DNA of 42,531 bases, from IMG/VR virus record IMGVR_UViG_3300035698_000133, positions 1-42,531 of that record. The stretch is one strand, 5' to 3'. Origin of the DNA: a virus. This document shows, piece by piece, positions 23,420-37,992 of the stretch (within the stretch, counting starts at the first letter, position 1; every line of letters begins with the position of its first letter). The translations under genes and the position numbers were made by a program. The notes under the pieces were generated by a model. That model ran no database searches, was not told the origin of the DNA, and saw nothing but the letters and a program-made list of their open reading frames with translations.

Positions 23420-23770
23420 CTAACCCCTCTCAACATATTTCATTTTAATTTCTTTTGGACTGAAGAAATCCACAATAACTCCAGTTGCAAGACCCGTATC
23501 ATATTTCTTACAACTAAAAATATCAATATAACAGTCACCTGTTTTATCTACAAAGTGTCCTGTGATGTTACTGGTTTCTATCATCTGACAAAAACTGTAA
23601 CCGGCCGCATCAGGGTCGTGTGTTGCAAAGTGTGCAATCATTGGGTCACCATATGATACCATACCAATTGTTGGAACAACATTAGAAATGAATGATCGAA
23701 TATTCTCTTCTGTTAAAGTTTCCTTTGAACAGGATTCGCAATCAAATAGTGTATGATAACCCCAAGCCAT
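23420..23770 (-). CDS. speD: S-adenosylmethionine decarboxylase (SpeD-like)
   Basis: 116 aa. Pyruvoyl enzyme that decarboxylates SAM for spermidine synthesis, known from marine T4-like phages. The proenzyme cleavage region is IETSNITGHF, with Ser67 as the expected pyruvoyl-forming residue and His72 (GHF) nearby; the following CYIDIFSCKKYD matches the conserved strand and Cys acid/base region of the family, and a VDFFSPKEIKMKYV C-terminal end follows. Polyamines could neutralise packaged DNA. Its ATG shares one base with the uvsY stop (TAATG). Confidence 0.78.
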   Translation of the reverse strand: MAWGYHTLFDCESCSKETLTEENIRSFISNVVPTIGMVSYGDPMIAHFATHDPDAAGYSFCQMIETSNITGHFVDKTGDCYIDIFSCKKYDTGLATGVIVDFFSPKEIKMKYVERG

Positions 23771-24201
23771 TATATCATACCCGCTTCAAACTTTTTCCAA
23801 TCAGTGGCATTACGAATATCCCACCCACGATTGTCGATAGATTTAATCACACCCTTGCAGTAGTCTACGCATGAATCGTAGTACCCAATTTTATTTGAAA
23901 TTCTAAGAATGTCCTCGTCGGACTGAATGTACATTGTAAGGTCTGTCTTCATAACCCTAATGTCAAACGGTTTTGCAGCGTAGACTTTTGCATCTGCCTT
24001 ACCACCATAGTACTCCCATTTCTGACGATATAGGAGTTGATGGTCAGTTTTAGCTTTGACCAGTAGCAATTCAAAGTCTGCCTTGAAGTCCAACCATTTC
24101 CGTTTGATCATTTGATTTTTAAAAGATTCCTGATCGATATGTTCTAGATCAGTTATAGGAAGGTCTTCTCTTGCAGTTTTCTTTAGTACTTCTAAATCCA
24201 T
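23770..24201 (-). CDS. uvsY: UvsY recombination mediator
   Basis: 143 aa (T4 UvsY is 137). Loads UvsX recombinase on ssDNA coated with gp32. It matches T4 UvsY over the whole length: KWLDFKADFELL, YYGGKADAKVYAAKPFD, MKTDLTMYIQSDEDIL and the end CKGVIKSIDNRGWDIRN followed by WKKFEAG. It starts at ATG 24201, 14 nt after the T-run that ends the putative small RNA, and is coupled to speD downstream. Confidence 0.94.
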   Translation of the reverse strand: MDLEVLKKTAREDLPITDLEHIDQESFKNQMIKRKWLDFKADFELLLVKAKTDHQLLYRQKWEYYGGKADAKVYAAKPFDIRVMKTDLTMYIQSDEDILRISNKIGYYDSCVDYCKGVIKSIDNRGWDIRNATDWKKFEAGMI

Positions 24202-24215
24202 AATTGCCTCATAAT

Positions 24216-24334
24216 AAAAAAAGTGAGCAGTTTGGTTTCTCTCTTTGATATGTTGACCCTGATGAGTTCGAACGAGTTGTCATCAGAAATTAAGTCTAAG
24301 ATTTGATAAATGTTAAAGCTTACCAAATCTGCTC
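24216..24334 (-). ncRNA. putative structured small RNA with own late promoter and terminator
   Basis: The 141-bp gap between gp3 and uvsY has no reading frame of note but is organised as an RNA gene. A TATAAATA late promoter ends 5 nt before G24334. From exactly that base, GAGCAG-A-TTTGGT pairs with ACCAAA-CTGCTC (24225-24236) as a 12-bp stem with one bulge closing the whole RNA, followed by AC and seven Ts (24216-24222). Inside is a perfect 7-bp hairpin CTGATGA/TCATCAG (24259-24286). The length is about 119 nt. It does not fit a tRNA. No known phage RNA family is recognised. Confidence 0.6.
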
Positions 24335-24339
24335 ATCTA

Positions 24340-24347
24340 TATTTATA
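24340..24347 (-). promoter_or_regulatory. late promoter TATAAATA for the small RNA
   Basis: Exact late consensus overlapping the gp3-like stop codon (the TAA lies in TATAAATA). The expected +1 is G24334, the first base of the closing stem. Confidence 0.7.
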
Positions 24348-24927
24348 CACTCTCAAATTTATAAATTTGATATTTGAATGTTACATCAGCAGTCATATAC
24401 TCAACATCTGTTGCACCCTGTGTATAATTTAATCCACTGAGTGATATTGGAAATACGTTTTGGAAATTTACGTTTAGAATTGGATTATTTTTGTTTGACA
24501 GGATCATAAGAAATGCATCCGAATACATTGCTTTATCAGATACAGCATTACCAACAAGATCAACAGGTTGTTTTACACCCCCGGCCGGAGTGTTTGACGT
24601 AACATCCCTATGTTTTCTAAATTCTGACCTATCTGATGGGAAACCATACCCCGTAATCCAATTGTGTAGGGTCTGATAATTTTCTAGATACTCATCTACA
24701 ATAAATGTGATAGTAAGGTCACTATATGTAAGTTTATCACCCATAATTGGAATATTCTTAAATGGGTTTGCGAAATCTACAGATGCGCCCTCAATACCGG
24801 GCAGGTTTGCATTGGTTGTGAAAAACTCTACCTTTGGTAATTGTTGAATACCAAAGCGGAACTGGGTTGGACTTGCATAGTCTAACTGTTCTGGTTGTCT
24901 TGCGAGTGGTGATTGTGATGTTGCCAT
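24343..24927 (-). CDS. gp3: tail completion / sheath stabiliser gp3-like protein
   Basis: 194 aa. Placed between gp23 and uvsY, where marine T4-like phages carry the gene annotated as gp3. Recognisable pieces are YASPTQFRFGIQQLPKVEFF, LTYSDLTITFIVDEYLENY, the loop LHNWITGYGFP and FPISLSGLNYTQGATD. The strand pattern resembles the tail-tube fold, so it could be a tube-related terminator rather than a true gp3 homologue. It would cap the tail during assembly. ATG at 24927; ACCTAAATAG just upstream resembles a weak late promoter and contains the previous gene's stop. A late promoter for the small RNA overlaps its stop. Confidence 0.65.
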   Translation of the reverse strand: MATSQSPLARQPEQLDYASPTQFRFGIQQLPKVEFFTTNANLPGIEGASVDFANPFKNIPIMGDKLTYSDLTITFIVDEYLENYQTLHNWITGYGFPSDRSEFRKHRDVTSNTPAGGVKQPVDLVGNAVSDKAMYSDAFLMILSNKNNPILNVNFQNVFPISLSGLNYTQGATDVEYMTADVTFKYQIYKFESV

Positions 24928-34844: not shown

Positions 34845-35996
34845 TTACCAACTTCCAGAACTGTCTCTCACAATAGGTGCCCAACGAGTTCCATATTCGT
34901 CTACCATTTCTCCAATATTTTCATCCTCAAGCCCATTTACTATGAAACCAAAGGGTGCCATATCCTGTTCTAATGCATCTTGTTGTTCAGACATCATCGT
35001 TTTACGGATATCATTATTAGTTAATTCTTTGAAATACTGTTGGTCTGTAACCCATGCAAAGATAAAGAGACATGCAACAAGGTCATCGTTACACCCATCA
35101 TCAGCCTCAAAGGATGAACCCTTAACAATAAAGGTTGATAACTCATTGATACATTCGTAATCCTCAATAATCAGTTTATTATCTTCAACCAACTGCTTGA
35201 GGTTTGAACAACCAATCTTCTTTGTTGCCTTTGTGGTTCTTACCCCCAACTGCGCTCTACCACCACTGAAGCCCCCTCCAAGGACTTGTCCCGCACGGCC
35301 ACGCATACTTGCCATAATAAGGTTGTCATACTCCAAGTCAAACTGCATAGCGTTAGCAACCTGTTCTCCAATGTCATTAACCTCAATCAATACAAAGGCT
35401 TGATTGTATGCTCGTGCAGTGTCATAGATTTTAGATGGGAATATGAGAGGTTTGATTTCATTGTCACGAAATTTTGCAACGACCCTATATGGTATTTCAC
35501 TCACATCCACAACCACAAATGCTGAGTAATCGTTTGATGTTCCCCGTGAAACATCAGCAGTGAGAAGATATGTGTGACCTTCTTGTGGTAGAACATGAAC
35601 ATCAAGCCCCCCACTAGACTGCTTAGGTGCTCGATATGTTAACTGTTTAAGTTTATGGGGTGCAATCAGTGTATCAATAGAGCCAAGGAACTCACAATTG
35701 TGTGATACTAATCCGTTGGTGTAGTAAAGATTTCCATTGGCAACATTTAACAAATCATATAAATCAATATCATCCTCAACATCTTCTGCATACAGTATTT
35801 TTTTACCCTGAAGCTCTGTGCCGTGATGGAGTGTTGAGGCTACTATTTCCTCTTCACCAAATCTATGATTTAACGAACATTTGATTTCTGTGCCATCATC
35901 AAAAATAAAATGTCGATATTTGCTGCGTGTTATTTTTTGAATACCAGCAAAATCCACAAACCCTGATGGTGATAACACTTTATAACTTTTAGACAT
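34845..35996 (-). CDS. gp17: large terminase gp17, C-terminal half: C-intein plus nuclease domain
   Basis: 383 aa from ATG 35996, which is preceded by GGAAG and overlaps the endonuclease stop; an upstream ATG (36011) is possible. Residues 1-100 are a C-terminal split intein (ends TNGLVSHN). From Cys101 (CEFLGSIDTLI) the protein is the second half of T4-like gp17: the end of the ATPase region, then the RNase-H-fold nuclease with TADVSRGTSNDYSA, VLIEVNDIGEQV and the acidic DDGCNDDLVACLF. After trans-splicing to the N-half, the motor would have about 552 residues and cut and package DNA. Confidence 0.93.
   Translation of the reverse strand: MSKSYKVLSPSGFVDFAGIQKITRSKYRHFIFDDGTEIKCSLNHRFGEEEIVASTLHHGTELQGKKILYAEDVEDDIDLYDLLNVANGNLYYTNGLVSHNCEFLGSIDTLIAPHKLKQLTYRAPKQSSGGLDVHVLPQEGHTYLLTADVSRGTSNDYSAFVVVDVSEIPYRVVAKFRDNEIKPLIFPSKIYDTARAYNQAFVLIEVNDIGEQVANAMQFDLEYDNLIMASMRGRAGQVLGGGFSGGRAQLGVRTTKATKKIGCSNLKQLVEDNKLIIEDYECINELSTFIVKGSSFEADDGCNDDLVACLFIFAWVTDQQYFKELTNNDIRKTMMSEQQDALEQDMAPFGFIVNGLEDENIGEMVDEYGTRWAPIVRDSSGSW
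35697..35996 (-). other. C-terminal half of split intein (IntC, 100 aa)
   Basis: Starts MSKSYKVLSPSGFVDFAGIQ, has the block B-like HxxH-region KCSLNHRFG, and ends LYYTNGLVSHN before Cys+1, with the penultimate His and terminal Asn needed for cyclisation. Recalled similarity to the AceL-TerL IntC is strong (ILSPNGF, HIIFDDDTEIKTSINHPFG, LYITNGVVSHN). Confidence 0.9.
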
Positions 35997-36561
35997 CTTT
36001 CCAACTTCCATTTAAGACTATTTTTTTTAATCCCTGTAAAGTTAATCCATAATCATTATGATATGTCTTACAAAAACCTTGCACATAAGACATCGCCCGG
36101 CCGTTTCCTTGGATTTCACCAACACCATCAATATGAGGTTGTTCATCATACAACTTTCTTATTTCTCTAACAGTATCAATATCTACTTTGGAAGAGTGTC
36201 TTACACCCTTTCTTTTAGCAGACCAACGAGCAATAGTTTCTTCACTAAAACATCCCTTCATCCCACGGTTCCAAGCTTTAGTTCCTTTTTTCACACCACC
36301 AATACCTTTCCTAGAATACCCCGAAAATCCCTCACCGCCGGGGGTTTTATTCCATCCAAAAAGATAACAATCATTTTCCCTAATCAATCGTATCTCCATA
36401 TCCCTTGCTTCTATGCGGTCATTAGTATTGTCTATGATATGGAATGTATGTTTAGGTTTTTTATTTTTGTGACATGTTTTTCTTACATCAGGATTGATTG
36501 TCTGCCCAACATATTTGATTTTGTTTGTATCGTCTTTTAATGCGTAGATATGATAAACCAT
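35989..36561 (-). CDS. GIY-YIG homing endonuclease inside the split terminase intein
   Basis: 190 aa. GIY-YIG core MVYHIYALKDDTNKIKYVGQT, with RKTCHKNKKPKH and the conserved Glu region RDMEIRLIREND; a NUMOD3-type GVKKGTKAWNRGMKGCFSEET region and a C-terminal helical DNA-binding part (YNDYG-like HNDYGLTLQGLKKIVLNGSW) follow. It separates the N- and C-intein genes of gp17. TATAAATA lies 5 nt before the ATG, with the N-intein stop codon inside the promoter. Its stop overlaps the start of the C-half gene by 8 bp, so the C-half is probably translated by coupling to it. Confidence 0.88.
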   Translation of the reverse strand: MVYHIYALKDDTNKIKYVGQTINPDVRKTCHKNKKPKHTFHIIDNTNDRIEARDMEIRLIRENDCYLFGWNKTPGGEGFSGYSRKGIGGVKKGTKAWNRGMKGCFSEETIARWSAKRKGVRHSSKVDIDTVREIRKLYDEQPHIDGVGEIQGNGRAMSYVQGFCKTYHNDYGLTLQGLKKIVLNGSWKDV

Positions 36562-36566
36562 ACACC

Positions 36567-36574
36567 TATTTATA
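36567..36574 (-). promoter_or_regulatory. late promoter TATAAATA, 5 nt before the endonuclease ATG
   Basis: TATAAATAGGTGTATG. The TAA stop of the terminase N-half lies within it. The expected +1 is the A of the ATG; this promoter would also drive the C-half of the terminase. Confidence 0.8.
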
Positions 36575-37481
36575 CATCCAAAGAACTCACACTCACCATT
36601 TCTTCAATATTTACATTAATAATCTTTCCTGTATCATTGTCTTTGAGAGTAACCTTTGTATCACCAGAAACACACTCAAACTCCGTGTTAAACTGAGATT
36701 GGGAAGTGTTTCTGATTGTTTCTTCTTTCCACTTCTCATCCCGGCCGGGAACTTCACTCCAATGAACCTCAATTGGTATATAATTGTTACGACCTTCCTC
36801 TGCATCCACCCATAGTTTATAGAACATATTCATACCGTGGGGAGTAGAAACAATCATAACTTTAGTTGTTTTACCAGATGAAATTGTGGGATACACTGAA
36901 CTAAAGAACTGTTCAGCTACGTTTGCAGGAACATAAGCAAACTCATCAAGGAAAATAATGTTATATGAACCACCACGAACAGCACTAGCTGAAGTGGAAC
37001 TTGCCAGTATTTTAGAACCATTTTCTAACTCCAAGGAACCTTTGTTCCAACTCATTACCCCCTGTTGTAACCATTTGGGTAGGTGTTCATACGCAAGTTG
37101 TAAACGTGACAGTAGATCACGAGCAGTTGCTGCCTTATTTGCAAGGATTGCGATATTAACATTGGGGTTGAATAGTGCATAATGTAACAGATATGAAACC
37201 ATAACTGTAGACTTACCGGACTGTCTGGGTAGTTTGCAAATAGTGAAACGATTGCTGTGGAATGTACCAACCATTTCCTTCTGAAAGTCATACATCTTAA
37301 ATGGAACAAGGCCCTCATCAAGATTAATAATCTTGACATAGTTTTCTATGAAATATTGTGGACTCTCCATGCATTCCTGATACTCAACAAGGTGTTTTTT
37401 AGTCCAGTTCTGTGCGACATTAGCCTTTTTCAGATTCGGGTTACCAGCATAGGTTTGCGGACCAGTATCAGGTTTTGCCAT
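36570..37481 (-). CDS. gp17: large terminase gp17, N-terminal half: ATPase plus N-intein
   Basis: 303 aa. Residues 1-269 are the packaging ATPase: the adenine-binding MYDFQKEMV, Walker A KLPRQSGKST (about 83-92), Walker B NIIFLDEFAYV and coupling motif MIVSTPHGMN, ending TEFE. Residues 270-303 are a short N-intein (from CVSGDTKVTL). Without the C-half it has no nuclease. ATG 37481 lies inside the end of the HNH gene (14-bp overlap), whose last codons supply GGGAGG. An older, broken gp17 start lies upstream of that HNH gene (38003-38047). Confidence 0.94.
   Translation of the reverse strand: MAKPDTGPQTYAGNPNLKKANVAQNWTKKHLVEYQECMESPQYFIENYVKIINLDEGLVPFKMYDFQKEMVGTFHSNRFTICKLPRQSGKSTVMVSYLLHYALFNPNVNIAILANKAATARDLLSRLQLAYEHLPKWLQQGVMSWNKGSLELENGSKILASSTSASAVRGGSYNIIFLDEFAYVPANVAEQFFSSVYPTISSGKTTKVMIVSTPHGMNMFYKLWVDAEEGRNNYIPIEVHWSEVPGRDEKWKEETIRNTSQSQFNTEFECVSGDTKVTLKDNDTGKIINVNIEEMVSVSSLDV
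36573..36674 (-). other. N-terminal half of split intein (IntN, 34 aa)
   Basis: Begins with catalytic Cys1 (FE|CVSGDTKVTLKD), block A of inteins, and ends after only 34 residues at the TAA of the late promoter. The unusually short N-part is the hallmark of the atypical AceL-TerL split intein (25-aa IntN). Confidence 0.88.
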
Positions 37482-37992
37482 CGTTCCTAAACCTCCCCAT
37501 TTTCCAATCCCACTTGGAACTTTTTATTCTATTATAGACAGTTGGCATCGAGCATCCAAATGTTTCCATTACACTATCTAATCCCAAGTATTCTTTTCCT
37601 TCTATAATATATGTCTTCTTTTGCCAAGGTCTGTCTTTTATTTTAGACCAATATTCTTTGTTAGACTTAGACATTCTTTTTTTATTTTCTTCCGTGTGTT
37701 TACTACCTCTCCACACCTCATTTCCCTTTATACCATTTTCCAAAGCTGCCTCTAATTTTCTTCCAGTTTTTTTTCCTTTATTAGCCATACTTTGTGCCTG
37801 TTTAGTTGCTTCTGCAAAACTTATAGAACCACTTAAAGCTTTCCACGCAACCCTATCTTCCCACCTACCATATTCTTCATATAACTTACAATGAGCTGCA
37901 GCGTGTTCTGGTATAGTCAATACTATAATGTTTGATGGGTCATCAGTACCACCAGCATGTCTTGGTATGATGTGGTGTTTATGTGTAATCAT
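37468..37992 (-). CDS. HNH homing endonuclease upstream of the terminase
   Basis: 174 aa. HNH box HKHHIIPRHAGG, then SNIIVLTIPEHAAAHCKLY, paralogous to the rightward HNH enzyme at 9022-9576. A basic NUMOD3-like middle (HTEENKKRMSKSNKEYW) and a C-terminal repeat (YLGLDSVMETFGCSMPTVYN) with helix-turn-helix character follow. TATAAATA lies 5 nt before the ATG. Its last 14 bases overlap the gp17 start and hold the gp17 ribosome-binding site. A degenerate copy of the gp17 start lies directly upstream. Confidence 0.88.
   Translation of the reverse strand: MITHKHHIIPRHAGGTDDPSNIIVLTIPEHAAAHCKLYEEYGRWEDRVAWKALSGSISFAEATKQAQSMANKGKKTGRKLEAALENGIKGNEVWRGSKHTEENKKRMSKSNKEYWSKIKDRPWQKKTYIIEGKEYLGLDSVMETFGCSMPTVYNRIKSSKWDWKMGRFRNDGKT

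Follow-up and report, generated by a model that had tools for sequence, protein, structure and literature searches.

A conserved structured RNA with a predicted late promoter in front of uvsY in marine T4-like phages

What lies in the gap between a gp3-like gene and uvsY in a marine T4-like phage genome, an ordinary promoter with a hairpin between two genes or the gene of a structured RNA, and if an RNA, is it a product of its own or the leader of the gene behind it? The locus sits in a viral DNA of 42,531 nucleotides (IMG/VR record IMGVR_UViG_3300035698_000133, analysed at full length and called here the window). A first-pass annotation had proposed a compact small-RNA gene with its own late promoter and terminator. 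The elements of the locus are as follows.

24343 to 24927, minus strand: gp3-like tail completion/tail tube gene, upstream of the RNA (phrog_45 tail tube, E 3e-34)
24340 to 24347, minus strand: late promoter element TATAAATA, T4-type, identified from sequence, overlapping the gp3 stop codon
24216 to 24334, minus strand: proposed RNA of 119 nt, +1 at G24334 and 3′ end at the U-run, from the covariance model and homologues
24216 to 24222, minus strand: U-run (7 T) of the predicted intrinsic terminator, identified from sequence
23770 to 24201, minus strand: uvsY, recombination mediator, directly downstream of the RNA (Pfam UvsY, 7.5e-31; phrog_231)

The gp3-like gene (24927-24343) also has a tblastn match to marine T4-like gp3. 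The RNA 5′ sequence GAGCAGAUUUGGU starts five bases past TATAAATA (24347-24340, minus); its first base, G24334, opens the closing stem, whose other strand is ACCAAACUGCUC, and after that strand comes ACUUUUUUU. The annotation had placed the expected +1 on exactly this base of a 12-bp stem, downstream of a TATAAATA overlapping the gp3 stop, and this holds to the base on the minus strand. The element at 24347-24340 has the form of a T4-type late promoter, a TATAAATA-like −10 box with a predicted start about 6 nt downstream. In the window, and also in Melnitz, a cultured phage of Methylophilales, several late promoters take the form TATAAATA-N5-ATG of an ORF; if these genes are leaderless, transcription would begin at the sixth base past the box, and at this locus that base is the first of the stem. 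Three such promoters in the window (38005-37998, 36574-36567 and 23363-23356, all minus) stand exactly 5 nt from the ATG of homing-endonuclease-like ORFs and apparently give leaderless late transcripts.

Elsewhere in the window we observed that the gene for the terminase large subunit is split into two ORFs within 34845-37992 (minus), with a GIY-YIG gene between them; Terminase_6N lies in 37481-36570 and Terminase_6C in 36011-34845. With CVSGDTKV... at the end of the first ORF and ...GLVSHNCEFLGS within the second, the arrangement resembles a fractured gene bearing a split intein; profile searches for intein domains in the two ORFs returned no confirming match.

On the window alone, the gap might hold no more than an ordinary late promoter and, between the two genes, a terminator hairpin of a generic kind or due to chance. 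TATAAATA occurs 10 times in the window against 3.55 expected, late promoters being common there, and the fold of the window sequence by itself is only moderately unusual (z −2.55). The annotation had considered the fit of start, stem and terminator hard to explain by chance; the single sequence gives this only moderate backing, and it is the homologues that settle the matter against chance.

Several hundred loci were fetched through gp3 and UvsY protein searches together with a DNA pattern. In the first locus set, 45 of 47 distinct gp3-uvsY gaps contained the element. A covariance model, R1, built from 20 RNAs, matched the window at 24225-24334 with 77.5 bits (the window being in the seed) and gave 99 matches in a set of 100 sources picked for a TATAAATA-like box upstream of uvsY, nearly all of which had one copy. 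A detector blind to the promoter found 103 distinct matches in 265 fetched loci; every one of the 103 carried TATAAATA, TCTAAATA or TATATATA upstream, and in 96 of them the spacing from promoter to stem was exactly 5 nt. These data support a fixed RNA start, at the base with which the closing stem begins, with promoter and start locked together as far as sequence can tell, and together with the compensatory pairing described below they bear out the proposal of a compact RNA gene with a putative late promoter of its own.

Melnitz carries the RNA between gp3 and uvsY (L263:3561-3643, E 6e-7, not in the seed), with the G of GAGCAG at about 129850 in the Melnitz EXVC044M record. This phage was reached through its gp3 protein and then matched by the covariance model; nucleotide BLAST against isolates returned no homologue. 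Searched with the model, neither the window nor the Melnitz genome showed a further copy, and in the sequence examined the RNA unit was single-copy and found at no other locus. It was absent from the pelagiphages Mosig and HTVC008M and from the cyanophages checked. A host-derived RNA was considered and set aside, as the exact promoter-plus-RNA pattern, searched in its strict form only, had no match in a bacterial and archaeal genome collection. The RNA measures 110 nt to the end of the closing stem in the window and about 81-119 nt in relatives, and uvsY begins within 60 nt behind it in 303 of 309 detected loci.

Where genes are inserted between gp3 and the RNA (L026, L141 and duplicates), the promoter stays with the RNA, and where genes are inserted downstream (two genes in L256; a gene of 456 aa in L208/L216) the RNA is intact. 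The gp3-side insertion in L141, L188 and L292 spans about 2.2 kb; its genes include one for a possible 2OG-oxygenase and one for a large protein that looks structural, and the promoter-RNA unit beside uvsY is undisturbed; the insertion between RNA and uvsY in L256 (11349-13888) holds, by eye, asparagine-synthase-like and tryptophan-halogenase-like genes. Three loci without the RNA (L067, L077, L268) have a sigma70-like promoter of TTGACA or TTGATT type directly before uvsY, and L071/L072/L074 have both the RNA and a sigma70-like promoter.

The fold of the RNA is built around a closing stem, P1, in which GAGCAG(A)UUUGGU (24334-24322) pairs with ACCAAACUGCUC (24236-24225) over 12 bp with one bulged A, and an internal hairpin, P3.

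24329 to 24334, minus strand: P1a 5′ strand GAGCAG, the first 6 nt of the RNA, pairing with 24225-24230
24225 to 24230, minus strand: P1a 3′ strand CUGCUC, pairing with 24329-24334
24322 to 24327, minus strand: P1b 5′ strand UUUGGU, core GGU at 24324-24322, from core pairing and covariation
24231 to 24236, minus strand: P1b 3′ strand ACCAAA, core ACC at 24236-24234, from core pairing and covariation
24315 to 24318, minus strand: P1c 5′ strand CUUU, within the conserved CUUUAACA, pairing with 24239-24242
24239 to 24242, minus strand: P1c 3′ strand AGAG, in the conserved purine run AAAGAGAG, pairing with 24315-24318
24255 to 24296, minus strand: P3 hairpin, core GAC at 24296-24294 with GUC at 24257-24255
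24280 to 24286 and 24259 to 24265, minus strand: P3 extension, CUGAUGA (24286-24280) with UCAUCAG (24265-24259), in long forms only

Each helix is maintained in relatives by changes on both strands. The P1a helix is paired in 94.7% of cases and shows the compensatory change from GAGCAG/CUGCUC to GAGUAG/CUACUC. The core pairs of P1b are formed in 99.7%; its middle pair shows 46 double changes from A-U to G-C among 99 sequences, and has four independent coupled events on the uvsY tree. P1c is paired in 96.1%, with relatives passing from ACUUU/AAAGU to ACUUG/CAAGU and ACUUA/UAAGU; a CUUU/AAAG contact entertained as a pseudoknot with the alternative hairpin P2 (below) was dropped, since it is nested inside P1 as P1c. 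In P3, 94.3% of cells are paired over the 99 aligned RNAs, and an A-U/U-A pair of the core has 42 double changes and about six coupled events on the same tree. Because P3 stood one column out of register in model R1 and was counted in the right register, this support was not built in by the model. The annotation's internal 7-bp hairpin, CUGAUGA/UCAUCAG, is real as the P3 extension but restricted to long-form lineages, and its pair of similar AACATnTATCAAA segments did not survive: the second reads CAAUAUA...AAAGAGAG in homologues, so the similarity is not conserved and looks like chance in this genome. Two segments, CUUUAACA and CAAUAUA, are conserved and unpaired.

Over all pairs, 95.8% of pair cells hold in the 99 aligned RNAs, and pairing falls to about 40% when the partner is slid by one column. 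Double-sided changes number 117 cells against 41.5 ± 9.1 in shuffles, so that compensatory changes exceed chance as in structured non-coding RNAs generally. Letter-shuffle tests ignore relatedness, and this objection is answered by counting coupled changes on a tree built from the uvsY genes rather than from the RNA: four for pair 18-128, about six for pair 57-98 and about four for pair 4-138, as a parsimony count without a null of its own. We regard the covariation, read from sequence alignments, as decisive for a conserved RNA fold, and the conserved pairing in homologous gp3-uvsY gaps that the annotation had proposed as a check was thus found in P1a, P1b, P1c and P3. The chance-hairpin reading is contradicted by these compensatory changes in four helices, by the fixed 5-nt spacing and by retention of the RNA while UvsY proteins drift to about 42% identity; we consider it barely credible. 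By contrast, we are nearly certain that the locus encodes a genuine structured RNA whose transcription is late and from a promoter of its own.

The mismatch pattern also bears on strand. Cells with G-U outnumber those with A-C by 99 to 9, or by 34 to 9 when one mostly U-G column pair is removed. An excess of this size points to selection on the RNA of the minus strand and rules out a DNA inverted repeat or palindrome as the conserved object. The gene neighbourhood is that of T4 ori(uvsY)/oriF, which uses a middle promoter and is shut off late (PMC3016281), and it speaks for a role at the level of DNA, as an origin of replication or an R-loop site. The T4 origin transcript is likewise a promoter-proximal RNA in front of uvsY. 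T4 ori(uvsY) combines a MotA middle promoter with an R-loop, whereas here a promoter of late type precedes a conserved folded RNA, and with the G-U asymmetry added we find a DNA-level role very improbable.

Two results go beyond the first-pass annotation: the wide phylogenetic spread, which includes a cultured phage, and a second hairpin, P2, that shares the 5′ strand of P1.

24319 to 24330, minus strand: P2 5′ strand AGAUUUGGUAAG, a nascent hairpin mutually exclusive with most of P1
24299 to 24310, minus strand: P2 3′ strand UUUAUCAAAUCU, pairing with 24319-24330

In the window P2 is a 12-bp nascent hairpin (5′ half z −3.2). Among 26 diverged sequences the P2 strands score higher with their own partners than with swapped partners (1 in 5000 permutations); the same is true of P1b and P1c and not of three control segment pairs, and the 5′ strand is complementary to the 3′ strands of both P2 and P1 beyond swapped controls. 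P2 is strong (5′ part z < −1.5) in 19 of 39 representatives, about half of the lineages, and weak or absent in several (L442, L448 and L432 types). By computed energies, P1 is favoured over P2 in 38 of these 39. P2 tends to be somewhat stronger in members with a U-run behind P1 (Spearman −0.37, p 0.02, uncorrected for phylogeny). In about half of the lineages P2 and the closing stem draw on one 5′ strand, so that the RNA could swap folds there.

The terminator is the part of the original proposal that stands only partially. After the 12-bp stem come A, C and the seven T that had been noted (ACUUUUUUU, 24224-24216; the T at 24222-24216), and the stem encloses a loop of about 85 nt, which is unusual for a terminator; a terminator scan passed over this stem because its loop limit was 8 nt. 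Stem and T-run are thus present in the window, but a T-run of at least 5 right after P1 occurs in only 23 of 54 diverged representatives (about 40%). Lineages missing the U-run would have the RNA without an intrinsic terminator, as the 5′ leader of the next gene, and a start codon does lie about 9-28 nt past P1 in nearly all representatives. In Melnitz-type members (L263, L396, L420 and others) the P1 end CUCAC has a complement, GUGA, close to the ribosome-binding site of uvsY; this is a possible link, not universal, between P1 and translation.

The constant site before a start codon, the many lineages without a terminator and the P1/P2 exchange favour a cis-acting switch or leader whose folding would set read-through into the next gene, uvsY; we give this reading a little short of an even chance. 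Late RNA polymerase with a gp55-type sigma would start at G24334, 5 nt past TATAAATA, and the nascent 5′ half would fold P2 (and P3) first. Once the 3′ strand is exposed, GAGC at the free 5′ end could serve as a toehold by which the more stable P1 rod displaces P2, an order suggested by computed energies, and P1a, P1b and P1c would then close the RNA from its first nucleotide onward. With UUUUUUU behind P1 in this genome, part of the transcripts would end as the 119-nt RNA when P1 forms, formation of P2 would favour transcription continuing into uvsY and the recombination genes that follow, and in lineages without a U-run the element would stay as a structured 5′ leader of the next gene. Exclusivity of P1 and P2, which an attenuator would need, is supported; more than half of the lineages have no U-run, however, and several have a weak P2 or none, so attenuation cannot hold for all of them. 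The RNA stays intact at loci with genes between it and uvsY (L256; L208/L216), which counts against this reading, as a leader dedicated to uvsY would have no use for that.

A discrete, end-sealed RNA acting in trans late in infection, by binding a protein (RNA polymerase, the ribosome or a phage factor) or another RNA, would fit several of the same observations: the 5′ and 3′ ends are paired to each other, the RNA has its own promoter and in about 40% of lineages a predicted intrinsic terminator, the unpaired CUUUAACA and CAAUAUA segments are conserved, and the RNA is kept with uvsY 2.5 kb away (L256) or another gene behind it (L208, L216). Lineages without a U-run would then get their 3′ end by processing. 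Those many lineages, and the unvarying locus with a start codon 9-28 nt behind, speak against it, as does a limited search for antisense duplexes over the start regions of the window and Melnitz, in which the best hits were no better than those of shuffled queries. Given its end-sealed form, the predicted terminators and its persistence at loci where uvsY lies farther off, we consider an RNA acting in trans possible rather than probable.

A leader might also be passive, its 5′ sealing protecting the late mRNA, or might direct the polymerase during elongation. The putRNA of phage HK022, which has a different structure, comes from an early lambdoid promoter and suppresses termination. It offers a precedent as a nascent phage RNA that acts on RNA polymerase (PMC9378689), and by analogy both would be structured RNAs at the head of a phage transcript, working co-transcriptionally if the leader reading is right. 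The stem here does begin at the very first nucleotide and the element heads a late transcript. The uvsY-side RNA is late and often has its own predicted terminator, however, and 3′ terminator U-runs in many lineages would be odd for an antiterminator; furthermore, in Melnitz and the window most of the remaining late promoters are followed by leaders of 5-60 nt that lack the element, the RNA unit being the exception. We regard a passive or polymerase-directed leader as improbable.

The annotation had recognised no known family, and we agree: the window RNA had no match in Rfam 15, either at the gathering threshold or at E up to 5, and Rfam searches of 13 loci with distant homologues gave nothing over the RNA. 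ARAGORN found no tRNA or tmRNA in the window. Attenuators and riboswitch leaders likewise have a 5′ strand with two alternative downstream partners, one of them followed by a U-run, but here the terminator stem is outermost, starts at +1 and encloses a large loop, the U-run is not universal, and there is no known ligand or ribosome-stalling peptide. The rod with closing stem, internal loop and apical hairpin resembles 6S RNA, in appearance only, the RNA here being shorter, at another locus and without an Rfam 6S match even at E up to 5. Structured RNAs have been described in the same phage group at the ssrA region (PMC9004378); the uvsY-side RNA lies at a different locus and lacks an Rfam match. 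For Melnitz, late promoters, terminators, a glutamine riboswitch and a tmRNA have been published, and the RNA goes unmentioned in the passages covered of that paper and of related papers. We rate it a candidate new family within the structured leaders and small RNAs of phages. Tentatively, and with more doubt than confidence, we would go further and see in it a new class of phage non-coding RNA, so far found only in marine T4-like phages, that acts in trans or on the late machinery through strand exchange from P2 to the rod.

The T4-like phages that infect marine heterotrophs rank with the most abundant viruses. An RNA present in one copy, with a base-exact start and conserved despite the drift of UvsY, very likely matters late in their infection, and its presence in the cultured phage Melnitz makes it testable at once. 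If the switch reading is true, late transcription would be tied to uvsY and uvsW by RNA folding alone, in genomes that are otherwise stripped-down in regulation.
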